Assembly: GCA_003599865.1 (NCBI GenBank)
Contig: QZKS01000087.1
Span: 1 to 64,000, forward strand
Direction: 5' to 3'
Source of the DNA: Desulfobacteraceae bacterium
GTDB lineage: Bacteria > Desulfobacterota > Desulfobacteria > Desulfobacterales > SURF-7
Length of the DNA stretch: 64,000 bases
The notes beneath the pieces were generated by a model, which had not been told where the DNA came from, ran no database searches, and worked only from the letters and a program-made list of their open reading frames with translations. Both the position numbers and the translations under genes were made by a program. Below are positions 26,466 to 62,203 of this stretch, in pieces; position 1 is the first letter of the stretch, and the number at the start of each line of letters is the position of its first letter.

Positions 26466-29400
26466 ATGAAATTTATAGCGGATCTTCATATTCATTCCAA
26501 ATATTCCAGAGCGACAGCGAAAAATCTTGATCTGGAAAACCTGTATATTTCAGCCCGGCGAAAAGGCATAACGGTTGTAGGAACAGGGGATTTTACCCAT
26601 CCACATTGGTTTTCCGAATTAAAAGAAAAACTGATACCAGCTGAACCAGGATTGTTTCAATTAAAGAAGGAAATAGCCGGAGTCTGTGACCGTGAAGTGC
26701 CGGAATCCTGTAAATCACAGGTTCGGTTTATACTGGAATCCGAGATCAGCAATATTTATAAAAAAAACGGTAAAACAAGAAAAAACCATAATCTTGTTTT
26801 TTTTCCCGATTTTGAAAAAGCGGAAATATTTAATTCCAAACTGGATCGTATCGGCAATATCAAATCGGACGGAAGGCCGATACTGGGATTGGATTCCAGA
26901 AATCTGCTTGAAATTATACTTGAAACATCAGAAAATGCCTATCTGGTTCCAGCACACATCTGGACACCATGGTTTTCGCTGTTGGGATCCAAATCCGGAT
27001 TTGATTCCATTGAAGAGTGTTTTGAAGATTTAAGCCCGTATATATTTGCAGCGGAAACAGGCCTTTCTTCAGACCCTCCAATGAACTGGAGGATTTCCAG
27101 TCTTGACCGGATAACACTGATATCCAATTCCGATGCGCACTCACCCGGCAAACTGGGAAGAGAATCCAATCTGTTTAATACGGATCTGGATTATTTTGCC
27201 ATAAGAAAAGCCATGGAAACCGGAAATCCGGATCAATTTTTAGGGACATTTGAATTTTATCCGGAAGAAGGAAAGTATCACCTGGATGGTCATAGAAAAT
27301 GTAATATATGCTTCACACCTGAGGAGTCCAGAAAACATAAAGGAATATGTCCGATATGCGGAAAATCCATGACGCTTGGCGTATTATACAGGGTTGAAGA
27401 ACTGGCGGACCGGAAAGAGGGATATATCCCGAGCAATCATCATCCCTATTACAGCATTGTTCCATTACAGGAAATTCTTTCGGAATTGTTAAAGGTCGGC
27501 CCTCAATCCCAAAAAGTAAAAAATTACTATGAGGTGCTCATTCAAACCTTTGGCTCGGAATTAGACATATTACATACTATGGATCCGGTACGGATTGAAG
27601 CTGCCGGGATTCCTTATCTCGGGGAGGCCATACAACGAATAAGAGACCGGAAAATAGTATTGTTTCCGGGGTATGATGGAGAGTATGGAAAAATTCAGAT
27701 CTTTGACGAAAGGGAAAGACAAAAACAGCAGGCTCAAAAAAATTTGTTTGAATTACCGGAAACCCTGGAAAAAGAAATGGGGATAGTAAATAAAAAAAGA
27801 ATATCATCCGGTCCGTCTGAAAAACTGGAACGAAAAACCCGAACTTCCTTTCAACAAATCAGCAGGATAAATGATCTGAATGAGCAGCAGCGCAGCGCTG
27901 TTTCCCATATGGGAACCCCTCTGTTAATTGTCGCCGGCCCCGGTACCGGGAAAACCCTTACCCTTACCCATAAAATTGCATATTTAATCCATAAAAAGGA
28001 AATTTCTCCTGATCATATTCTTGCCGTGACCTTTACCAATAAGGCGGCGCAGGAGATGAAAGAACGACTGAAAAGACTGTTGGGAGATGATGCACCATTG
28101 CCATTTGTGGCCACATTTCATTCCCTCTGTTTTCATATTTTAAATGAAGTGAATTATGGTCAGCAATATACCATTGCCGATGAGGACGATCGTATCTTTT
28201 TTATAAAAGAGGCCTGCGCCCGGGTCCGGGAAACAGGAATCAAACTTCCTCATTCAGAAAAAACTTTTTTACACATGATCATTGCCGCAAAACAAATTAT
28301 TAGGGAACCATTCGATGATATTACATCGATAGCGAATGATTATGGTTGCCGTGTTGATCTGTTACGGAAAGTATATGGTGAATATCAGAATGTTTTATCC
28401 GGTCAGGGGGTGTATGATTTTGAGGATTTGATCTTCAAGGTGGTTAAACTGCTGGAAACAGATGATAAAATTTGTAAAAAATACAAAAACTTATACACAC
28501 ACATCTTGATTGATGAATATCAGGATTTAAATCAGGGTCAGTATCGGATTGTCAAAGCCCTTGCATCGGAAAATCCGAATTTGTTTGCCATTGGAGACCC
28601 GGATCAGTCGATTTATGGATTCAGGGGTTCAGATGTTCAATTTTTTAAAATGTTTATAAATGATTATCCCCAGGCCAAAACCATCCACCTTACCCGTAAT
28701 TATCGTTCCACCGAAACCATTTTGCAGGCATCTTTTCAGATTATACGAAGCCAGCATGACCAGCCTTCTGAATCAAGAGTGTATTCAGAAATTGATGGTA
28801 CGAAAACCATATCGGTGATGAAGTTTTCCAGTGAAAAAGCAGAAGCGGTCGCCATTGGAAAAATAATTGAGCAGATGGTTGGAGGGCTTGGATTCTACTC
28901 TATTGATTTTCAGAAGGCAGGTGATGGTTTTGAAATCATGGACAGGAGTTTTTCCGATTTTGCCATTCTGTATCGTACCAATACCCAGGGCAATCTTTTG
29001 GGAGAAGTTTTGGGTCGAGCGGGCATACCCTTTCAACAGGCAAGTCGTGACCAGGCGTTTTCACAAAAGGGCATCCGGGAAGTATTGTCTTTACTCAAAA
29101 TCGTATCCGGGGTAGGCACTCATGCTGATTTTCAGCAAGTGATGGAAACCATAGGAAAGGGATTCAATCAAAAGGACGGCAAAATTTTTAAAAAATGGTG
29201 TTTCCGTAATAATTTTCGTCTGGAAGAAAGCTTGAATCGCGTGCTTCGATTTCCCGTACCCGGAATGGGCACAACCAACCAGTTACAATTAAACCATTGG
29301 ATCAACAAACTATTTGAATACAGACAAGCCTTCAAAAATAGGCAGATAGATGAAAATCTTTTCGATCTGCGGGAACAATTTCTAAAAACGAGCGGTAACA

Positions 29401-49926: not shown

Positions 49927-50033
49927 GTTTCCGTAATCCTCCCTTGGACCTGGTTAGTATATGAAAGAAAAAACGTAATAACAAACGTAAGCAGATAAGA
50001 TGACCGCTAATTTATCAACTACACTGCTGTCTG

Positions 50034-52214
50034 TCAATCCCATATTAGTTTGCGGGCCAGCCCGGACAGACGCTCCCTTGGTTTGTCATTGTTGACGGCA
50101 ACCGATAATGCCTTGCGGGTTCCAATGAGAATCACCAGTTTTTTTCCCCGGGTCATGGCGGTATACAAGAGGTTTCGCTGCAGCATGACATAATGCTGGG
50201 TCAGCAGCGGGACGATGACCACCGGATATTCCGATCCCTGGGATTTGTGAACCGAGATCGCATAGGCCAGGGAAAGCTCGTGCATCTCCTCCGGTTCATA
50301 TTCGACCTTCCTTCCTTCATAATCCACGGTCACCAGCCGGGTCTGGTGGTCGATGGCTGCAATGGTTCCGATATCCCCGTTAAACACATCCTTTTCATAG
50401 TTGTTTTTCAAATGCATGACCTTGTCGTTTGGTTTATAGGTGATCCCCATAATTTCCATTCCGGTATGATCCGGATTCAGGGTTTTCTGGAGCGCCTGGT
50501 TCAGATTGATCGTTCCGATCAATCCCTTGTGCATGGGGGTCAGCACCTGAATGTCCCGGATGGGATCAAAGCCGAACCGATGGGGAATGGATTCGGCGCA
50601 CAGGGTTTTGATGGTTTCCACCACGGTATCGGGGCTGCTCTGCCGGATAAAATAAAATTCCGAGAGTTCATCTTCCGGGCCGGCGGTCTGAAAGTCCGGG
50701 ATCTCGCCCGGATGATTCCAGTCCCGGACCATATGGGCATTAACGATAATCGGGCTCTCCTGGGCCTGCCGGAAAATGGTTTTCAGATAATAGACGGGAA
50801 CGGCATGGGATTGAATGATGTCTTTCAGGACATTTCCCGGGCCTACGGAAGGAAGCTGAAAAACATCCCCCACCAGGATCAATACCGATGTCACCGGAAC
50901 AGCCCTGATCAGATGAAACAGCAGGAGGGTGTCCACCATGGATGCTTCGTCAATGATAATCACATCCGCGTCAATAGGGTTGTTCGGGTTGATCTCAAAC
51001 CGCTGCTCTTTTAAATTGTATTTCAGCAGACGATGGATGGTTTTGGCATCCCGCTGTACGACTTCGGAAAGGCGTTTGGCGGCGCGGCCGGTAGGGGCAG
51101 CCAGAACCACCAGCTTTCCCATTCGCTCAAAGATGGCGTTTACGGACCGGATCAGGGTGGTTTTTCCGGTTCCGGGCCCGCCGGTGATGACCGCCACACG
51201 ATGCTTCAGAATCTGTTCCAGAACTTCCAGTTGTCCGGCGGAGAGCTGGATGGCCAGTTTTTTCAGTATTTCACAGGTAAGCTCTTCCGGATTCATGTTC
51301 AGCATCGGCATGGGTACGGACAACAGGGCCTTGAACCGATTGGCGATCCCCTGTTCCGCGGCATGCAGCTCTTTGGAATATACGGCTTTTTGATCCTGTT
51401 TGTCCGGAATATCCTCCCGGACAAGAATGCCGCTGTCTGCCAGCTCGTCCAGGGCAAGGGCGGCAATTTCCGGATCGATCTGAAAGGTCTGCCCGCATTG
51501 ATCAATGATGACGGTATCCGGAAGAAAGGTATGGCCATCGTTTTCCCCCTGGCCGATGAGATACCGAATGCACCCCCGGACCCGTTTGGGGTCGTCCTTG
51601 GGCAGGCCGTTGTGCCGGGTGATGGTGTCGGCGATCAGAAAACCAATCCCCGGGATGTCTTCGGCAAGCCGGAAAGGGTCTTTTTTCAGGATATCCAGGG
51701 CTTCTTCTCCATATTCCTGCAGGATGCGGGCACTGTAGGCACCCTTGATCCCCCGGGCCTGCAGAAACTGCATCAGTTCCCGGACGATATGGTGTCCTTT
51801 CCACGAGCGTTCAATCAGCCCGGCCTTTGCCTTGCCGATCCCATTGACCTCGGTGAGTCTTTCCGGACATTGTTCAATGACCTCCAGTGTTTTTTTGCCA
51901 AAATGCCGGACAAGGCGCTTGGCGATCAAAGGGCCGATGTTTTTGATCACACCGGACTCCAGGTATTTCCGAATCCCCTCGATGGTTTCCGGAAGGCTGA
52001 CCGCAAAGGTTTCAATCTTGAACTGCTGTCCATAACGGGGATGGGTTTCCCAGTTTCCGCTGAGGCGAAGGGTCTGGCCGGGTGAAATGCCCGCCATGAA
52101 ACCGACAATGGTGATCATGCTGCCGGGCGTTCCGGTTGCCAGCCGGGCAATGGTATAGTGGTTTTCCTCGTTCTGAAAGGTAATCCGTTCCAGGTTTCCC
52201 TCAAGGATGATCAT
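50034..52214 (-). CDS. recD2: RecD2-type ATP-dependent 5'-3' DNA helicase
   Basis: 726 residues from ATG 52214. An N-terminal OB-like region and helix-hairpin-helix segment ('CPERLTEVNGIGKAKAGLIE', 'DIPGIGFLIADTI') are followed by helicase motifs: Walker A 'VITGGPGTGKTTLIRSVNAI', 'VIIDEASMVDTLLL', 'GDVFQLPSVGPGNVL' and 'AYAISVHKSQGSEYPVVIVP'. RecD2 acts without RecBC in repair. The track start at 52373 overlaps gmhB; ATG 52214 overlaps the gmhB stop by four bases (ATGA), the usual coupling. Confidence 0.95.
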   Translation of the reverse strand: MIILEGNLERITFQNEENHYTIARLATGTPGSMITIVGFMAGISPGQTLRLSGNWETHPRYGQQFKIETFAVSLPETIEGIRKYLESGVIKNIGPLIAKRLVRHFGKKTLEVIEQCPERLTEVNGIGKAKAGLIERSWKGHHIVRELMQFLQARGIKGAYSARILQEYGEEALDILKKDPFRLAEDIPGIGFLIADTITRHNGLPKDDPKRVRGCIRYLIGQGENDGHTFLPDTVIIDQCGQTFQIDPEIAALALDELADSGILVREDIPDKQDQKAVYSKELHAAEQGIANRFKALLSVPMPMLNMNPEELTCEILKKLAIQLSAGQLEVLEQILKHRVAVITGGPGTGKTTLIRSVNAIFERMGKLVVLAAPTGRAAKRLSEVVQRDAKTIHRLLKYNLKEQRFEINPNNPIDADVIIIDEASMVDTLLLFHLIRAVPVTSVLILVGDVFQLPSVGPGNVLKDIIQSHAVPVYYLKTIFRQAQESPIIVNAHMVRDWNHPGEIPDFQTAGPEDELSEFYFIRQSSPDTVVETIKTLCAESIPHRFGFDPIRDIQVLTPMHKGLIGTINLNQALQKTLNPDHTGMEIMGITYKPNDKVMHLKNNYEKDVFNGDIGTIAAIDHQTRLVTVDYEGRKVEYEPEEMHELSLAYAISVHKSQGSEYPVVIVPLLTQHYVMLQRNLLYTAMTRGKKLVILIGTRKALSVAVNNDKPRERLSGLARKLIWD

Positions 52215-52783
52215 GCGGGTTTCCGGCTCCCTGTCATCCATATTGCGGCATCCAGCAGGTTTTCGGCAATATGGTCGGGGACAATTTGTTTTTCGGCAAG
52301 CGCAGTCCTTGCTTGTGGACCATTGCCGGTCAGCACCAGGATCGTTTTTCCGCAGCCCGCATTTAGGCCGCACTCAATATCCCGGGCGCTGTCGCCCACC
52401 ATGAACGACATTTCCATGTCGATCGGATAGGCCTGTTGCGCCTGCCGGATCAGGCCCGGCAGGGGTTTGCGGCATCGGCAGCCATCTTCGGGCGTGTGCG
52501 GGCAGTAAAAGATATCGGTGAGCCGTCCGCCGGCGGCAAGGATCTCCTGTTTCATCATGGAAAACATATATTCAAGGTCGGAAAGCGGAACCATTCCCCG
52601 GTTGACCATGGACTGGTTGGTAATCAGGAAGACCTGAAAATCGTGTTGGGTCAGAAGCCGGATGGCTTCCAGGCTTCCGTCGATAAAGACAACCTCCTCC
52701 CAGCTTTTGATATAGTCGGGAGAATCCATATTGATGACACCGTCCTTGTCCAGAAATACGGTATATCGCTGTTTGCTTTTCAT
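52211..52783 (-). CDS. gmhB: D-glycero-beta-D-manno-heptose-1,7-bisphosphate 7-phosphatase
   Basis: About 190 residues. HAD motif I 'TVFLDKDGVINMDSPDYIKS', motif II-like 'LITNQSMVNRGMV', zinc loop 'FYCPHTPEDGCRCRKPLPGL', and motif IV 'FMVGDSARDIECGLNAG'. The zinc loop is characteristic of GmhB, which makes heptose-1-phosphate for LPS core. ATG 52783 ('MKSKQRYTVFLDKDG') chosen; a TTG at 52792 is possible. Flanked by rlpA upstream and recD2 downstream in one minus-strand run. Confidence 0.92.
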   Translation of the reverse strand: MKSKQRYTVFLDKDGVINMDSPDYIKSWEEVVFIDGSLEAIRLLTQHDFQVFLITNQSMVNRGMVPLSDLEYMFSMMKQEILAAGGRLTDIFYCPHTPEDGCRCRKPLPGLIRQAQQAYPIDMEMSFMVGDSARDIECGLNAGCGKTILVLTGNGPQARTALAEKQIVPDHIAENLLDAAIWMTGSRKPA

Positions 52784-52797
52784 GAATACCAAGTCTG

Positions 52798-53577
52798 TTA
52801 TTCCGCGACAATAAAGGAATCGGTAAACCCGGCTTCCGCCAGCAGGCTTTCTTCCTTCATGATCTGCTGAAGAGACGTGTACTTCCCTACCCGAACCCGG
52901 TAAAAGGTTTCCTGCCCGGTGTCATGCCGGGAGATATGGGCGTTCTCATACTGCCGGCTCAAGGTCTGCACCAGCCGTTCCGCATTTTCCCTGTTCTTGA
53001 AGGCGCCTACCTGGAAGGTAAACGTGCCCGCGTCGTAGTTGACCGGTACAAATTCGGTCGGCGTATCGGTTGGCCGGGATTTGTCTTTGGAAGCGCCCAA
53101 TGCCACCACGATGACCGGTGCGGTTCCGGGCCCGACCATATCCAGTTTTTTGGCGGCGGTATATGAGAGGTCAATGATGCGGTTTCCCACAAAAGGGCCC
53201 CGGTCGTTGATCCGGACAACAACCTCTTTTTCATTTTTTTTGTTATACACGCGGACCCAGGTTCCCAGAGGCAGGGTTTTGTGCGCGGCGGTCATGGCAT
53301 GCATATCATAGATCTCGCCATTAGAGGTCTTTTTGCCATGAAACTGATCCCCATACCAGGAGGCGATTCCATCCTGCTGAAAGCCGCCGGCGTGAGATAT
53401 GGGCTGATACCACTGTCCCAGGACCTTGTATGGCTTGGGCTGGCCGGGTATGGCTTTGGGGGGCGGAGTATCCGGCCGCATCCGGGCACAGCCTGCCGTA
53501 AGGGCCATACACAGAAGTATGGGAAGGGCAAGTTTTATCAAACCGGAAAACCGGTTGTATGCAGGGTGTTTTTTCAT
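52798..53577 (-). CDS. rlpA: RlpA-family septal ring lytic transglycosylase lipoprotein with SPOR domain
   Basis: About 259 residues. A lipobox 'ALTAGC' ends the signal peptide. The double-psi RlpA domain has 'GIASWYGDQFHGKKTSNGEI' and 'VRINDRGPFVGNRIIDLSYT' with the catalytic Asp region. The C-terminal SPOR domain ('FTFQVGAFKNRENAERLVQT', 'FYRVRVGKYTSLQQIM') binds denuded glycan. It cleaves peptide-free peptidoglycan at the septum. Start chosen at ATG 53577, which gives a typical n-region; ATG 53589 is an alternative. Confidence 0.93.
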   Translation of the reverse strand: MKKHPAYNRFSGLIKLALPILLCMALTAGCARMRPDTPPPKAIPGQPKPYKVLGQWYQPISHAGGFQQDGIASWYGDQFHGKKTSNGEIYDMHAMTAAHKTLPLGTWVRVYNKKNEKEVVVRINDRGPFVGNRIIDLSYTAAKKLDMVGPGTAPVIVVALGASKDKSRPTDTPTEFVPVNYDAGTFTFQVGAFKNRENAERLVQTLSRQYENAHISRHDTGQETFYRVRVGKYTSLQQIMKEESLLAEAGFTDSFIVAE

Positions 53578-53860
53578 CGGGCAGCTCATTTCCGTTTCAA
53601 GATTTATGATTCTTCATGCCATTAACACAGGTTTTGATAATGATTCAAATTGTTTTATGGAAAAGATGCGTATTTTTTACAAGACTGAAAAAATTCCATC
53701 ATATTGCCCGCACGGGAGAATGATCGGCTTGCAACCACCCCGGACACATGATAATAGGAAGGTGATCTTGTCTCAAGCCTTTTTATGAAAAAGGAAACTT
53801 CCAGGGCCGGTCAATTTCAGGTTTATATTTTTCCACGACCATAAAATCATAGGGGGAAAT

Positions 53861-54430
53861 ATGCTGATTCCACATTCATGGCGGCGTCGAATTTCTTTTA
53901 TCATGGCGGTTCTGTTTCTTGTTTTTACCGTCGGCACAACGGCATCGGCCGGTGGATTTTTAACCGCACCGGTTGATACACTGCACCCCTGTCTGTCATT
54001 GAGTGAAGCTGATTTTTCCCACCTGTTGGCCGGGGATCAACCAATATCGTTGCCCACACCGGAGTCGCCTTCAATGGATGTCGATTTCGGAAAGGTGCAT
54101 AAATATCTGGGATACAGTACAATCCTTCTGGCAGGTCTGGCGGCGGTCACCAGTTCAAGTAAGTCCCTTCATTACGGAGCGGCCTATTCGGCCACCGGTG
54201 CGGCGTTGGCCACGTGTTTTACCGGGTATTATGAATACCGGGACCGTTTTGATCTGGATAACGGGATTCTGGCCGAAGACAATGTGCATATCCTGTTGGG
54301 AACCCTGGGCGCCCTTGGTGTCGCCACCGCAATCGCCATTGCGGATTCCGGCGAAAATAATAGCCATGCGGGTGCAGGCATTATCGGCGGTGCGGCGATG
54401 ATGCTGTCCGTTATCGTGATCAAATGGTAG
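53861..54430 (+). CDS. Hypothetical exported or membrane protein, 189 residues
   Basis: Signal peptide near residues 10-30 ('ISFIMAVLFLVFTVGTTASA'). Later hydrophobic, Gly/Ala-rich segments: 'YLGYSTILLAGLAAVTSSSK', 'LLGTLGALGVATAIAI' and 'GAGIIGGAAMMLSVIVIKW', with charged 'YYEYRDRFDLDNG' between them. Probably three to four membrane helices in the inner membrane. No family recognised. A plus-strand run follows: LysE, ArfB, ADP-ribosylglycohydrolase. Confidence 0.7.
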   Translation: MLIPHSWRRRISFIMAVLFLVFTVGTTASAGGFLTAPVDTLHPCLSLSEADFSHLLAGDQPISLPTPESPSMDVDFGKVHKYLGYSTILLAGLAAVTSSSKSLHYGAAYSATGAALATCFTGYYEYRDRFDLDNGILAEDNVHILLGTLGALGVATAIAIADSGENNSHAGAGIIGGAAMMLSVIVIKW

Positions 54431-54441
54431 TCTTGCCATAA

Positions 54442-55059
54442 ATGATTGGTATGATCACCACCGGAATATTGCTGGGCCTATCCGCAGGCTTATCGCCCGG
54501 CCCTCTTCTCACGATTGTGATCGCGGAAACGATTCGTCATGATATCAAAGCCGGCATCCGGGTGGCCCTGGCCCCTCTGATAACGGATGTTCCGATTATC
54601 GCTGTCACGGTCTATATTGTAAGTCGCTTGTCACAGTTTGATGTGATACTGGGATGCATTACCCTGGTCGGAGGCGGTCTGGTGCTGTTTCTGGGATATG
54701 AAAGCTTACGGACCAAACCGGTTGCGGCAGATACCTTCATGGCCAGGCCGCATTCCCTGCTGAAAGGGATCGCGGTGAATGCCATGAGCCCGCATCCGTA
54801 CCTGTTCTGGTTCAGTGTCGGCGGCCCGATTCTCCTGAAAGCGCTGGAAAACAACATGCTGTCCGGAATCCTGTTTCTGTCCGGCTTCTATCTTCTGCTG
54901 GTCGGATCAAAGGTGATGATCGCGCTGCTGGTCAACCGGTCCCGGGCGTTTTTGCAGGGAAAGGCCTATCCGGCGGTCATGAGAATGCTGGGGATTCTAC
55001 TAATCGGATTTTCCGTTTTTCTTTTTCAGGAAGGTCTGGTATTGCTGGGTTTTATCTGA
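54442..55059 (+). CDS. LysE/RhtB-family amino acid exporter
   Basis: 205 residues with about six membrane helices. It carries the LysE signature 'LGLSAGLSPGPLLTIVIAET' near the start, 'GIRVALAPLITDVPIIAVTV', and 'GIAVNAMSPHPYLFWFSVGG'. Family members export amino acids or homoserine lactones; substrate not deducible. Starts 11 bases after the previous stop. Confidence 0.87.
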   Translation: MIGMITTGILLGLSAGLSPGPLLTIVIAETIRHDIKAGIRVALAPLITDVPIIAVTVYIVSRLSQFDVILGCITLVGGGLVLFLGYESLRTKPVAADTFMARPHSLLKGIAVNAMSPHPYLFWFSVGGPILLKALENNMLSGILFLSGFYLLLVGSKVMIALLVNRSRAFLQGKAYPAVMRMLGILLIGFSVFLFQEGLVLLGFI

Positions 55060-55100
55060 GAAGCAAAGGATCCAGACAAGATGAACGACAGGAAGCGAAG

Positions 55101-55529
55101 ATGCCGGATGACAGGTTGAGAATATCCAGTCAGATTATGATTCCCCTGAAGGAGATCGAAGTAAACGCGATCCGTGCCCAGGGAGCGGGCGGCCAGAATG
55201 TGAACAAGGTTGCTTCGGCTGTGCATATCCGTTTTGATATCCGGAACTCGTCCCTTCCGGATTTTTGCAAGCACAGACTGCTGGCCTTAAACGACCACCA
55301 CATCACCGGACAGGGACTGATTATCATCAAGGCCCAGCAATTCCGCAGCCAGGAGAAAAACCGGGATGACGGCCTGAACCGGCTGAGACGGATTATCCTC
55401 AATGCCATGGTCATCCGGAAAAAACGGAAGAAAACCATGCCCACCCAGGGCTCCCGTATCCGGCGCCTGGACCGTAAAATCCGGCGGGGCCGGATCAAAA
55501 CCCTGCGCCGAAAACCGGACGATGAGTAA
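55101..55529 (+). CDS. arfB: ArfB-type ribosome rescue peptidyl-tRNA hydrolase
   Basis: 142 residues. The release-factor-like GGQ loop is in 'NAIRAQGAGGQNVNKVASAV'. The basic C-terminal tail 'RRLDRKIRRGRIKTLRRKPD' would enter the empty mRNA channel. Length fits ArfB (YaeJ), which frees stalled ribosomes by hydrolysing peptidyl-tRNA. GGAAGCGAAG precedes the ATG. Between LysE and the ADP-ribosylglycohydrolase. Confidence 0.93.
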   Translation: MPDDRLRISSQIMIPLKEIEVNAIRAQGAGGQNVNKVASAVHIRFDIRNSSLPDFCKHRLLALNDHHITGQGLIIIKAQQFRSQEKNRDDGLNRLRRIILNAMVIRKKRKKTMPTQGSRIRRLDRKIRRGRIKTLRRKPDDE

Positions 55530-55540
55530 AGGAGGATGTC

Positions 55541-56317
55541 ATGATCGGTGCCATTGCCGGAGATATCATCGGCTCGGTGTTTGAATCCCGGCCGGTCAAA
55601 ACAACCGATTTTCTCCTGTTTTCGAAACATTCCCGGTTTACGGATGATACGGTGTTGACCCTTGCCGTGGCCCATGCGATTCTCCGTCAGACCGATTATT
55701 CCGCAGCCCTCAAAACCTTTGGCGCAAGATATCCGGATGCCGGATACGGCATGTCCTTTCTGAACTGGATTTTTGCCGAACAAAGCGAGCCCTACAACAG
55801 CTGGGGAAACGGATCCGCCATGCGGGTCAGCCCTGTCGGGTTTGCCTTTTCCACCATGGAAGAGGTGCTCGAGCAGGCGGAAAAAAGCGCTTCCGCAACC
55901 CACAACCATCCCGAAGGAATCAAGGGCGCCCAGGCAACCGCCCTTGCCGTTTACCTTGCCCGGAACGGACAAAACAAAGAGGCCATCAGGGAGGAGATCA
56001 CCCGAAGGTTCGGGTATGCCCTGGACCGGACCGTGGAGGATATCCGTCCCGCGTACCGGTTTGATGTTTCCTGCCAGGGGTCGGTCCCCCAGGCCATCAT
56101 CGCCTTTCTGGATTCCGAAAACTATGAAGATGCCGTCCGAAAGGCCGTTTCTCTGGGCGGCGACAGCGATACCCAGGCGTGCATTGCCGGCGGGATTGCC
56201 CAGGCCTATTACCGGTATATTCCGGAATCGATCATCCGGCAGGTGCATGGCATTTTGCCGGAACCCCTGTTATTGGTTCTCCAAGAGTTTACGGAGCGAT
56301 TCGGTCCATATTATTGA
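55541..56317 (+). CDS. ADP-ribosylglycohydrolase (DraG/ARH) family protein
   Basis: 258 residues. Mg2+-binding motifs 'IGAIAGDIIGSVFESRPVKT', 'SRFTDDTVLTLAVAHAI', 'WGNGSAMRVSPVGFAFS' and 'SLGGDSDTQACIAGGIAQAY' are all present. The family removes ADP-ribose from proteins, nucleotides or nucleic acids; DraG itself controls nitrogenase reductase. No draT or nif gene is nearby, so the substrate is open. AAAGGAGGATGTC precedes the ATG. Confidence 0.9.
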   Translation: MIGAIAGDIIGSVFESRPVKTTDFLLFSKHSRFTDDTVLTLAVAHAILRQTDYSAALKTFGARYPDAGYGMSFLNWIFAEQSEPYNSWGNGSAMRVSPVGFAFSTMEEVLEQAEKSASATHNHPEGIKGAQATALAVYLARNGQNKEAIREEITRRFGYALDRTVEDIRPAYRFDVSCQGSVPQAIIAFLDSENYEDAVRKAVSLGGDSDTQACIAGGIAQAYYRYIPESIIRQVHGILPEPLLLVLQEFTERFGPYY

Positions 56318-56679
56318 TCCCATTCCATGGAACTTGAAATTAACTGCATTTTGCGGAAAATCAGCGAAAATTCCAGATTTTCCAGAAAATGACCATTGTT
56401 CATAACTTGTCAATTTCTCCATAACAACCTGGAAACGGATAGAAAAATCAGCCTTCACCGGCGATGGTATTTTTTCTGAATCACCGATCAATGGATGATA
56501 AAAAAATCTGTTAAGTCAAACGGATATGTTCTGTCAATAACTATCCGGAACCGGCCGGGAAAGATCCGGAATATCCGGTTTGACAGAACCGCCTTGAATT
56601 TTTTATAGCAGGCATCATTGAGCGGTATCATATTCTTGCCCGCAATCCAAACCAACCGATACGCAAGGAGGAGTTCAGC
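56318..56679. other. Non-coding region with an imperfect inverted repeat
   Basis: 362 bases without a credible gene. GTTCTGTCA (56528-56536) and TGACAGAAC (56581-56589) are inverted around a CCGG-rich core (CCGGAACCGGCCGG ... CCGGAATATCCGG), able to form a long hairpin. It may be a terminator for the upstream operon or a small repeat element. The right end supplies the Shine-Dalgarno for the next gene. Confidence 0.5.
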
Positions 56680-56994: not shown

Positions 56995-57147
56995 CGCCCT
57001 CCCATGTTCTGCATTCACACCCCCCTTGCCAGACTCATCAAATAAGAGTAAATTTTCAACAAAGCACCTCAGTGGGCTCGGTGGAAGCCGGTGGCATTAT
57101 CTGCACCCACGGGGCCGGGTGTCCGCTGTATCAAAGGAGAATATGGC

Positions 57148-57879
57148 ATGGTGAAAATCAATGAAAATGAATTGTCGGCCATGTTGTTGGAGAATTTTAC
57201 GCTCAGGGAGGTTGAGCCGAATATCTTCTCCGTTCTCCCTGATAATGAATTTGGTAACGAGTATGACAGTCAGTTCGGTTTTGTTTACGACTTGGTAGCA
57301 TGCAATCCAATATACAACCGCCTTATTTGGGGCTATCCTGTCAAAATATTTCATCAAACAGCCAGTGAAGCACTGCATTCTTCACAAGAAGGGCACGTTT
57401 TGGATATTGGCTGTGGCTCTCTGGCATTCACAGCAAAAACATATAGTCAATATAGTGAACGGCCGGTTGTCTTGGTCGATCAATCGCTTAAAATGCTCCG
57501 CATGGCTAAATCAAGGTTAGTGAAACAAAACGGCCAAGTTCCAGATAATCTGGTTTTTCTTCATGCGGACGCTCTACAACTCCCATTTCAAGAAAACATT
57601 TTCACAACAATCCTTTCCGAGAATTTGCTTCACTGCCTCAGTGACACGGGTATTTTGCTGAAACAATTAAAAGCAGTCACATCAAAGAACAGCAAAATGT
57701 ATTTCACGACATTGGTGAAAAACAATCGTTTAGCTGACAAGTACCTTGAGGCGTTAGCTGACAGCGGCAAATTGGTATCGAGGGCCGTGGTTGACCACAA
57801 AAAAGTATTTGAGCAAATCGGCTTGTCTGCAAAATATGAAACAATCGGTAACATTTTGATAATCAAAGGAAATAAATAG
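57148..57879 (+). CDS. Class I SAM-dependent methyltransferase (possible gene cassette)
   Basis: About 243 residues. Motif I 'GHVLDIGCGSLAFTAKTYSQ', 'PVVLVDQSLKMLRMAKSRLV', 'LHADALQLPFQENIFTTI' and 'SENLLHCLSD' define a Methyltransf_11/25-like fold; substrate unknown. ATG 57148 is preceded by AAAGGAGAATATGGC; the track's 57091 start lacks support. It looks lower in G+C than the genes to its left and begins the row of small same-strand genes. A GC-rich palindrome follows it. Confidence 0.85.
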   Translation: MVKINENELSAMLLENFTLREVEPNIFSVLPDNEFGNEYDSQFGFVYDLVACNPIYNRLIWGYPVKIFHQTASEALHSSQEGHVLDIGCGSLAFTAKTYSQYSERPVVLVDQSLKMLRMAKSRLVKQNGQVPDNLVFLHADALQLPFQENIFTTILSENLLHCLSDTGILLKQLKAVTSKNSKMYFTTLVKNNRLADKYLEALADSGKLVSRAVVDHKKVFEQIGLSAKYETIGNILIIKGNK

Positions 57880-57897
57880 ACAATCAGCGAACAATCG

Positions 57898-57977
57898 GAT
57901 CAACCTTACCGCGGGAAGCTCGCCGGCGCTACACGGGTAAGGTCATTGGCGCGGTCAGGTTACCCGTGGCGTTATGA
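57898..57977 (+). repeat. attC-like imperfect palindrome 1
   Basis: GATCAAC at the left and GTTATGA at the right could be R''/R' boxes. Inner CCGCGGG and CCCGTGG pair at six of seven positions. Further ACCTTACC/GGTAAGGT and CACGGGTAA/TTACCCGTG repeats lie inside. The GTTATGA box is only ten bases before the next start codon, as in integron cassettes. Called by eye; boxes deviate from consensus. Confidence 0.4.
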
Positions 57978-57987
57978 AGGAGCAGAA

Positions 57988-58323
57988 ATGAACAATATTT
58001 TTCCCGATCCAATCAGAAACCTACCAGAAGCCGATATCCCTCTTGACGGCATCACCGCCTATTTATCACAGGCCAAAGATCATCAGGTGATCTTTATGCA
58101 ATTTGAAAATGATGTGGATCTTCCTGAACATTCTCATGCAGCACAAGTAGGGTTTGTCCTTAGCGGAAATATTGAATTGACGATCGATGGAATCAAGAAT
58201 AAATACAGCAAGGGAGATATTTATTTGATCCGGGAAAATGTAAAACACTCAGGAAAAATCTATGCCGGGTATGCGGACATTACCTTCTTTCAAGAGGCCA
58301 CCCGCTATAAAGAGAAAAAATAG
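57988..58323 (+). CDS. Small cupin-domain protein
   Basis: 111 residues from ATG 57988 (GAAGGAGCAGAA upstream). Cupin motif 1 is 'LPEHSHAAQVGFVLSGNIEL' with His metal ligands; motif 2 is 'GDIYLIRENVKHSGKIYAG'. Single-domain cupins include isomerases, dioxygenases and sugar-binding proteins; no specific assignment. Lies between two attC-like palindromes. Confidence 0.87.
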   Translation: MNNIFPDPIRNLPEADIPLDGITAYLSQAKDHQVIFMQFENDVDLPEHSHAAQVGFVLSGNIELTIDGIKNKYSKGDIYLIRENVKHSGKIYAGYADITFFQEATRYKEKK

Positions 58324-58331
58324 CGGGAATT

Positions 58332-58404
58332 TCATAACGAGTCAGTAAACCGGACGCCGGAAAAGCAGCGGCGCTTCGCGGACAGTTCAGTGGCGGCGCT
58401 GATT
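58332..58404 (+). repeat. attC-like imperfect palindrome 2
   Basis: TCATAAC at the left is the exact reverse complement of the GTTATGA box that precedes the cupin gene. Inside, CGCCG and CGGCG form a short stem followed by GCGCTTCGCGG. The right-hand box is degenerate, so the boundary is approximate. Confidence 0.38.
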
Positions 58405-58443
58405 ACTTCCAATATTGCCGAAACGAAATTGAACATACTGATC

Positions 58444-58884
58444 ATGACAAAAACAAACCGAAAAAAGATGACAATCCATGCAGATTTAATTGCACCATGT
58501 GGAATGAACTGCCGGCTCTGCTGGGGATACATTCGAGAAAAGAATACATGTCCAGGTTGTCTCAGGATCGATAGCCAAGAGAGTCGGAAATCAATATGCC
58601 GAACCATATGTAGAATCAGAAATTGTGAACAAATCACCAACGGCAAAACCAAGTACTGTTCTGATAGTTGTGATAGTTTCCCCTGCGCCAGGTTGAAACA
58701 ATTGGATAAGCGATACAGAACCAAGTATGGAATGAGCATGATCGATAACCTCAAATTGATAAATGAAGCCGGGATCAGACATTTCATTGGTAATGAAAAC
58801 CAAAAATGGATTTGTCCCGAATGTGGGGAAATAATTTGTGTTCATAAACCAACATGCCTTTCTTGCGGGTATAAATGGTATTAA
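58444..58884 (+). CDS. DUF3795-type cysteine-rich protein
   Basis: About 146 residues. N-terminal 'LIAPCGMNCRLCWGYIREKN' is the DUF3795 hallmark, with 'TCPGCLR' and 'YCSDSCDSFPCARLKQLDKR'. A C-terminal zinc ribbon is 'CPECGEIICVHKPTCLSCGY'. Likely metal-binding and cytoplasmic; no known reaction. ATG 58444 is taken; 58468 is another possible start, and neither has a clear Shine-Dalgarno. Confidence 0.85.
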   Translation: MTKTNRKKMTIHADLIAPCGMNCRLCWGYIREKNTCPGCLRIDSQESRKSICRTICRIRNCEQITNGKTKYCSDSCDSFPCARLKQLDKRYRTKYGMSMIDNLKLINEAGIRHFIGNENQKWICPECGEIICVHKPTCLSCGYKWY

Positions 58885-58933
58885 GAAAAAAAACGGGGTC
58901 TTCATTCTTGACAGAATTGGAAACAACGGCTTT

Positions 58934-58987
58934 GCCGAACCTGCACGGGACGCCAAACAGCTGGCGCCTGTGAGTTTTCAGTTCGGT
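58934..58987 (+). repeat. attC-like imperfect palindrome 3
   Basis: GCCGAAC and GTTCGGT are nearly complementary outer boxes. Inside, CGCCA-AACAGC-TGGCG extends to CACGGGA.. / ..CCTGTG with bulged bases. Bulges in a hairpin are a feature of attC recombination sites. Total about 54 bases, within the attC range. It lies between the DUF3795 gene and the next small gene. Confidence 0.45.
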
Positions 58988-59015
58988 CTCATAGAAGGGC
59001 ATTCATAAGTTTAAA

Positions 59016-59417
59016 ATGAAAAAATATGATACATCTTGGGATCTGATTAAAAGTGAGAAGGGAAACTTACCAGACGATCAAAATGCCTTCGATAAAAAAT
59101 ATCGAGAATGGCAAGAGCGTTCATGGGAGTTGTGGCTTAATGAAAACCTTAAATTTCCATTTCTTGTTAAAAGGATGGAAGATGAAGACGATGCATATTT
59201 TACAGACATTGCTGATCATGAACCCTTTAGACTTGGTCATGAAATGAAAGTTGTGGCACTTGATATGGAGGATGATCTGTACGGTGTGATAGTCAAGGTC
59301 AGAGAAGGGCGGAGAGTTGGATATGTCCCTCTTTGCGATTTTGAAGTACCTGATAAAGAAGACCCAAATTACTGGCCTGTTCGGGAATATGTGGTTTGGT
59401 TTGCTAACCTATGTTAA
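59016..59417 (+). CDS. Hypothetical protein, 133 residues (possible gene cassette)
   Basis: Acidic, soluble. N-terminal half helical ('DKKYREWQERSWELWLNENL'), C-terminal half beta-rich: 'GHEMKVVALDMEDDLYGVIV' followed by 'KVREGRRVGYVPLCDFEVPD', perhaps an SH3- or OB-like barrel. No family named. Only 28 bases separate its stop from the DUF4160 start. Confidence 0.7.
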   Translation: MKKYDTSWDLIKSEKGNLPDDQNAFDKKYREWQERSWELWLNENLKFPFLVKRMEDEDDAYFTDIADHEPFRLGHEMKVVALDMEDDLYGVIVKVREGRRVGYVPLCDFEVPDKEDPNYWPVREYVVWFANLC

Positions 59418-59445
59418 TTTTGGCCGAACAAATGAGGGATTTGAA

Positions 59446-59682
59446 ATGCCTACTATATTCCGGATAGGACCTTACCGCTTTTTCTTTTACTCAAGTGACC
59501 GTGATGAACCGTTCCATGTCCATGTTGAGCGTGAAAAGAGCATTGCAAAAATATGGATGGATCCAATAAGGCTGCAAAATAGTGGTGGGTTTAACAGATC
59601 CGAAATAAACAGAATATTATCGCTCGTATCTGAGCACCAAACTGAAATAACGGAGGCTTGGCATGAATACTTTGGCGATTAA
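59446..59682 (+). CDS. DUF4160-domain protein
   Basis: 78 residues from ATG 59446. 'MPTIFRIGPYRFFFYSSDRD' then 'EPFHVHVEREKSIAKIWMD' is the DUF4160 core with conserved His residues; 'LSLVSEHQTEITEAWHEYFG' ends it. It overlaps the DUF2442 gene by 20 bases, a pairing often seen and suspected to be toxin-antitoxin-like. Function unproven. Confidence 0.87.
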   Translation: MPTIFRIGPYRFFFYSSDRDEPFHVHVEREKSIAKIWMDPIRLQNSGGFNRSEINRILSLVSEHQTEITEAWHEYFGD

Positions 59683-59965
59683 CATTGAATTACCGAATAT
59701 ACACTGCGTCCAGACTACTGAAGATACATTAACAGTCGAGCTTGATGACGGCCGCACATTATCAGTTCCCATTGCATGGTATCCTAGATTACAGCACGCA
59801 ACACCGGAAGAAAGAGAAAATTGGCGATTAATTGGTGGGGGCCAAGGCATTCACTGGGAATCCTTAGATGAAGACATTAGCATCCAAGGGATTATTGCTG
59901 GAAAGTCATCCGGTGAGAGCCAATCATCATTTAAAAAATGGCTTGAATCCCGAAAGATCGAATAG
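59663..59965 (+). CDS. DUF2442-domain protein
   Basis: 100 residues. 'DTLTVELDDGRTLSVPIAWY' and 'PEERENWRLIGGGQGIHWES' with 'LDEDISIQGIIAG' are the DUF2442 signature. Translationally coupled to the DUF4160 gene. A GGCGTTAT motif follows shortly after, matching the boundary before the cupin gene. Confidence 0.87.
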   Translation: MNTLAINIELPNIHCVQTTEDTLTVELDDGRTLSVPIAWYPRLQHATPEERENWRLIGGGQGIHWESLDEDISIQGIIAGKSSGESQSSFKKWLESRKIE

Positions 59966-60010
59966 CCTTGCTGCCCATGACAGAGGCGTTATTTTCCAAT
60001 GGAGTAAGTG

Positions 60011-60415
60011 ATGAGTAATTTTCAGGACCACATCAACTCGGCCAAACGAACTGGAAATATCGAGTTTTCCATTGAGGAGCGGAGGGCTGATTGCGTTATC
60101 AGTCGTATGCCGGTTACCGCTGGTGTCCTAAACCCTTATGGTACGGTGCAGGCCGGTGCGATGATCTGGTTGGCGGATGTTACCGCATCGGTCCTTGCGC
60201 TTGAGGGACAAACGATTGGAGAAAACGGAAAGGGATTCCCCCTTGCTATCGATATTCATACAAATCTTCTCGGTAACCAAAGGGCTGGAGAAATTAAGGC
60301 AGAGGCCAGATTTGTGAGCAAAGGGAAAACGGTTCAGGTGATCAGGACCCAGGTGATTGGCAATGAAGGCAAGCTACTGGCCGAAGTCACAACGACCCAT
60401 ATCCTGGCAAAATAG
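60011..60415 (+). CDS. PaaI-type hotdog-fold thioesterase
   Basis: 134 residues from ATG 60011, preceded by GGAGTAAGTG. 'GVLNPYGTVQAGAMIWLADV' is the hotdog helix motif of PaaI-like enzymes, followed by 'IDIHTNLLGNQRAGEIKAEA' and 'GKTVQVIRTQVIGNEGKLLA'. Hydrolyses an acyl-CoA thioester, probably aromatic or small. 19 bases before phzF. Confidence 0.87.
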   Translation: MSNFQDHINSAKRTGNIEFSIEERRADCVISRMPVTAGVLNPYGTVQAGAMIWLADVTASVLALEGQTIGENGKGFPLAIDIHTNLLGNQRAGEIKAEARFVSKGKTVQVIRTQVIGNEGKLLAEVTTTHILAK

Positions 60416-60434
60416 GTCGGAGGGAACAAAAACT

Positions 60435-61356: not shown

Positions 61357-61384
61357 GTAGAGACGCGATGTATCGCGTCTCTAC
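61357..61384. repeat. GTAGAGACGCGAT palindrome, copy 1
   Basis: Arms GTAGAGACGCGAT and ATCGCGTCTCTAC, 13 bp each, separated by GT. Between phzF and aqpZ. Copy 2 lies on the other side of aqpZ. It resembles mobile palindromic (REP/MITE-like) repeats. Confidence 0.88.
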
Positions 61385-62157: not shown

Positions 62158-62203
62158 GTAGAGACGCGATGCATCGCGTCTCCACCATGCATCGCGTCTC
62201 TAC
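62158..62203. repeat. GTAGAGACGCGAT palindrome, copy 2 with an extra half
   Basis: GTAGAGACGCGAT-GC-ATCGCGTCTC, then CACC, then ATGCATCGCGTCTCTAC: a full palindrome (last arm with one mismatch) plus a further arm. Starts 25 bases after the aqpZ stop. Confidence 0.88.

Follow-up and report, generated by a model that had tools for sequence, protein, structure and literature searches.

A probable CALIN: a small, partly decayed cluster of integron cassettes without a neighbouring integrase in a Desulfobacterales-type genome

The segment between 57148 and 60415 of the DNA analysed here is very probably (probability about 0.9) a CALIN, a small and partly decayed cluster of integron cassettes without a neighbouring integrase. 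The window, meaning the whole stretch that was analysed, comprises bases 1-64,000 of contig C19 (76,280 bases) in a draft genome of 5.0 Mb and 100 contigs that belongs to a Desulfobacterales-type sulfate reducer. A preliminary description of the window had proposed a CALIN at this place, and the proposal is supported by attC matches at three gene junctions, by an integron integrase gene (intI) elsewhere in the genome and by a gene order that is not conserved in relatives. The cluster is a known, common kind of element in a new place.

Seven small open reading frames (ORFs) lie in this segment, all on the positive strand, in agreement with the six to seven unrelated one-strand genes first described. 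They are typical small accessory genes, and the one then listed as unknown is present and is a CcbP-like protein (Pfam Calci_bind_CcbP):

57148 to 57879, + strand: methyltransferase gene (cassette 1), Pfam Methyltransf_31/11
57988 to 58323, + strand: cupin gene (cassette 2), Pfam Cupin_2
58447 to 58884, + strand: DUF3795 gene (cassette 3), Pfam DUF3795 at 21.6 bits, just under the cut-off of 22.6
59016 to 59417, + strand: CcbP-like gene (cassette 4), Pfam Calci_bind_CcbP at 41.4 bits
59446 to 59965, + strand: DUF4160 and DUF2442 genes, an overlapping pair, Pfam at 64.7 and 86.5 bits
60011 to 60415, + strand: hotdog thioesterase gene (last cassette), TIGR00369 at 47 bits

The G+C content of the ORFs ranges from 0.39 to 0.50 and that of the region is 0.434, below the 0.532 of the left neighbours (50000-56346) as had been noted, with the far left of the window lower still.

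The evidence that these genes are cassettes comes foremost from their junctions. A covariance model (R1) was built from 13 aligned attC sites, all taken from intI-adjacent arrays of other genomes within the order, and run over the full 64 kb on both strands with filters off. Its three best matches in the window are all on the positive strand and all at gene junctions of the region, followed by a next-best match of 11.6 bits (E 2.7). The two top matches of a second model (R2), made from 56 sites that include this genome's own array and loci carrying related cassettes, are once more 57886-57977 and 58934-58987. The sites are as follows:

57886 to 57977, + strand: attC1, with R'' AGCGAAC, R' GTTATGA and crossover G57971
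58332 to 58420, + strand: attC2, with R'' TCATAAC and an R' degraded to ATTGCCG (58414-58420)
58934 to 58987, + strand: attC3, with R'' GCCGAAC and R' GTTCGGT

With R1, attC1 scores 20.2 bits (E 0.018, 57887-57977), attC2 16.8 bits (E 0.13, 58332-58418) and attC3 20.6 bits (E 0.014); the corresponding R2 values are 23.5 bits (E 0.012, 57886-57977), only 9.2 bits (58332-58420) and 19.8 bits (E 0.075), all of these E-values being moderate (0.01-0.13) and based on a short calibration. Two of the sites used to train R1, from loci L066 and L064, can be recognised as relatives of attC1 and attC2; this lifts the R1 scores of attC1 and attC2, which are therefore not wholly independent; the resemblance itself is homology to real integron sites. 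As a positive control, R1 was applied to contig C8 of the same genome, which lay outside the training set, yielding 14 matches of 14.0-29.6 bits, all on the strand that cassettes heading away from intI should occupy, and no sites of 14 bits or more in the 30 kb adjoining the C8 array. The preliminary description had named a covariance search as a check on its reading, and our own attC model returned matches at three junctions, where the GC-rich imperfect palindromes it had reported between several genes are indeed present.

Both attC1 and attC3 fit the structure model, their R'' and R' boxes retaining AAC and GTT with outer bases that depart from RYYYAAC/GTTRRRY, while attC2 has ATT for GTT. 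Because the window sites carry other R-box bases, a strict TAAC/GTTA scanner, which detected arrays beside intI, returned nothing in the region. A search of the window against Rfam at gathering thresholds gave no match. When the junctions were simply folded, their R boxes did not pair with each other, as one would expect of R'' and R' boxes that derive from different cassettes.

In a linear array the R' box of an attC belongs mostly to the following cassette, so each cassette's own start and end should match. The cupin cassette displays this pairing exactly: GTTATGA (57971-57977) stands ten bases before the cupin ATG (57988) and TCATAAC (58332-58338) eight bases after the stop, the two being exact complements at 7/7 positions, as a circularising cassette needs. 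The pair had been pointed out before, and it holds to the letter; the window has it at that spacing a single time, and none of 100 shuffles has it. Likewise, the R'' box AGCGAAC behind the methyltransferase gene matches at 7/7 positions the start, GTTCGCT, of the cassette that carries its homologue in genome G002, and the CcbP-like cassette starts with GTTCGGT and has, by eye, GGCCGAAC after its gene. Pairing between the start and end of one cassette accounts for the deviation of the outer boxes from RYYYAAC/GTTRRRY, which had been remarked on and is seen here too. The integrase IntI1 is reported to use the G of 5'-GTTATGA-3' as crossover point (2026 paper, PMC12901181). The motif GGCGTTAT occurs at 57968 and 59985 and in two more copies in the window; its recurrence before the thioesterase gene, noted earlier, is thus present, but four copies against 1.6 expected are not significant alone.

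Comparison with other genomes places several cassette borders at the same boxes. On its left, junction 1 resembles the first attC of an intI array in G034 (72% identity over 87 bases), a site that follows an unrelated gene, and the similarity stops at 57976; on its right, similarity to a cupin cassette of G135 sets in at 57970. Junction 1 is therefore a chimera in which two matches to different organisms meet in CGTTATG, the R' box. In the same manner, the DNA match of the thioesterase cassette to G006 begins at 59987, at CGTTAT, where G006 has a whole attC. These breaks (57970-57977 and 59987) show past recombination at the R' crossover. Next to attC2, which over 25 bases shares 92% identity with an attC of L064, the DUF3795 gene has a DNA match to G006 from 58421, just past the site, with 77% protein identity. 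The core of attC3 (58942-58980) is 92% identical to a site in the intI array of this genome (L009, 6884-6921) behind an unrelated gene, and it shares 80-93% identity with sites in L071, L141 and L142, none of which accompanies a DUF3795 gene. Homologous genes also stand in cassette settings elsewhere: the methyltransferase has 75-83% protein identity in G002 and G145, the G002 copy lying directly behind an attC-like site, the thioesterase has 85-89% protein identity to homologues within attC clusters of G006 and G135, and in L169 and L149 an attC site immediately precedes a cupin homologue, while 8 of 10 cupin homologues of at least 57% identity are not directly behind one. A CcbP-like homologue in G079 (77%) has no attC beside it. 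The stretch read at L149 (G135:C15, 805-4821) is another cassette cluster with at least four attC sites and no integron integrase, carrying a cupin and a thioesterase that are both related to the copies in the window.

The remaining junctions hold partial or degraded sequences, identified by eye or from a homology border:

57054 to 57126, + strand: putative decayed attC0, with R''-like TTTTCAACAAAG and R'-like GTCCGCTG, ahead of the methyltransferase gene (by eye)
59422 to 59435, + strand: possible R'' remnant GGCCGAACAAATGA, after the CcbP-like gene (by eye)
59985 to 59994, + strand: R' half-site GGCGTTATTT with crossover G59988, ahead of the thioesterase gene

The cassette of the methyltransferase homologue in G002 begins with GTTCGCTGAAG, which fits the GTCCGCTG of attC0 with one change, so attC0 might just be a decayed first site before the methyltransferase gene; the covariance search found nothing above chance there. 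Similarly, GGCCGAACAAATGA complements GTTCGG, the start of the CcbP-like cassette, with a covariance score of 4.9 bits that is not above chance, and the search gave no site above chance at the junction of the CcbP-like and DUF4160 genes. This junction (59418-59445, 28 bases) and that between the DUF2442 and thioesterase genes (59966-60010, 45 bases) are too short for a whole attC; the DUF4160-DUF2442 pair has no recognisable attC on its left side, and the thioesterase gene has the right half of an attC only. The crossover G of attC2, between the cupin and DUF3795 genes, appears to be mutated, judging from its bases. The earlier reading as a cassette array consequently stands for the cluster but not for every gene as its own cassette, as the DUF4160-DUF2442 pair and the thioesterase gene are without a whole attC.

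A whole-genome search with TIGR02249 gave no match on C19 and a single match above cut-off, on C8, where an intact intI (28183-29133; 441 bits against a cut-off of 265) has the catalytic motifs and the integron-specific patch. The earlier statement that there is no integrase is thus accurate for the contig but not for the genome, in which the suggested look for intI elsewhere found this gene with its own attC array. Across the order, intI is above cut-off in 75 of 146 genomes. The DNA of the C8 gene (27976-29162) is 93% identical to L083 (1-1199) from a same-genus genome, in which other shared DNA nearby is about 81% identical, a difference that may reflect a recent exchange of the integrase gene.

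With at least two attC sites as the IntegronFinder default for a CALIN (PMC12444791), the cluster has three matches of E < 1 with R1 and two with R2, no integron integrase nearby and co-oriented small genes; a complete integron would have intI and attI beside the array, and no intI lies on the contig. The cluster shares with CALINs its co-oriented, small, unrelated genes and, as in those of Xanthomonas, its position apart from the integron of the genome (PMC12444791), but differs in having three recognisable sites only, one of them without its crossover G, and two gene boundaries without a whole attC. The sedentary chromosomal integron on C8 has the attC type of the window, including the site that resembles the attC3 core, but its array lies beside intI with many more and stronger sites. 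Insertion of cassettes at attG sites was reportedly described by Loot et al. in 2024 (as cited in PMC12444791 and PMC12901181); such insertions likewise lie away from the integron platform, whereas no attG was identified at the window cluster. In bacteria, CALINs are reported to outnumber complete integrons (PMC9668308).

Two genomes of the same genus, G001 and G003, share the left flank in synteny up to 56991, after which they have different accessory genes, with no attC and no intI at the locus. The comparison of gene content in relatives, suggested along with the covariance search, thus found that gene order with flanks is not conserved. In G001 and G003 the counterpart of the right flank (from 62.2 kb) is found on other contigs, and neither the right-hand boundary nor an exact empty site was found in this comparison. 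The flanks of intI match between C8 and the integrase contigs of both genomes, placing the gene at a conserved integron locus. An ADP-ribosylglycohydrolase gene of the window (55541-56346) is absent in G001, where 29 bases separate the syntenic stretches, and is a second gene gain or loss adjoining the cassette cluster.

For the arrival of the cluster we favour, with some reserve, insertion in trans. Each cassette would have been a free circle, formed by an integron integrase joining two folded bottom-strand attC hairpins, and the cassettes would have been inserted one after another in the same orientation. The integrase would presumably have acted from its own integron on C8, the insertions falling outside the integron platform at a chromosomal spot of variable gene content, and the cassettes would probably have entered at a genomic (attG-type) site, not as an array piece brought in by ordinary recombination. 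Given the damage to attC2 and to the sites after it, the cluster may now be nearly fixed. Loss of intI in place, which is a known way for a CALIN to form, would instead make the cluster the remnant of a second integron, as its single orientation would allow. This we regard as improbable: C19 has no integron-integrase remnant, G001 and G003 lack attC and intI at the locus with the left flank kept to 56991, and their intI stands at the same place as that of C8, which favours insertion away from the platform.

Alternatively, ordinary recombination or another mobile element may have carried or copied a piece of array into this spot without the integrase. The spot is variable, with other accessory genes in G001 and G003 and with the nearby ADP-ribosylglycohydrolase gene present here and absent in G001, but no transposase gene was seen between 56.3 and 62.2 kb and the same cassette order occurs nowhere else in the genomes searched, making this route unlikely, though one to be reckoned with. 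A reading of the segment as a plain island of accessory genes whose palindromes arose by chance is very hard to sustain; GGCGTTAT alone is not rare and some sites score weakly, but the window's three best covariance matches all fall in the region, homology breaks at R' boxes and homologous genes stand behind attC sites elsewhere.

It is conceivable, but doubtful, that in this lineage an active chromosomal integron seeds cassette clusters at several other places in the chromosome, with off-platform insertion as a regular natural route of gene gain. Five more attC places in the genome bear on this idea (four sites on C88, three on C66, two each on C15 and C43, and one on C12); places that lie close to contig ends may be parts of a single array. 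CALINs are known as common and their origin is less settled; the cluster lends itself to tests of off-platform insertion, since the genome has its own intact intI and other attC places and the same-genus genomes are cassette-free here with the platform kept.

On the right side of the cluster, the PhzF and aquaporin genes were considered as extra cassettes and rejected, as there is no attC between them and the thioesterase gene. In 59 relatives the homologues of PhzF are all distant, with no more than 32% identity across most of the protein. The aquaporin gene is flanked on both sides by the palindrome GTAGAGACGCGATGxATCGCGTCTCxAC (window 61357-61384 and 62158-62203).
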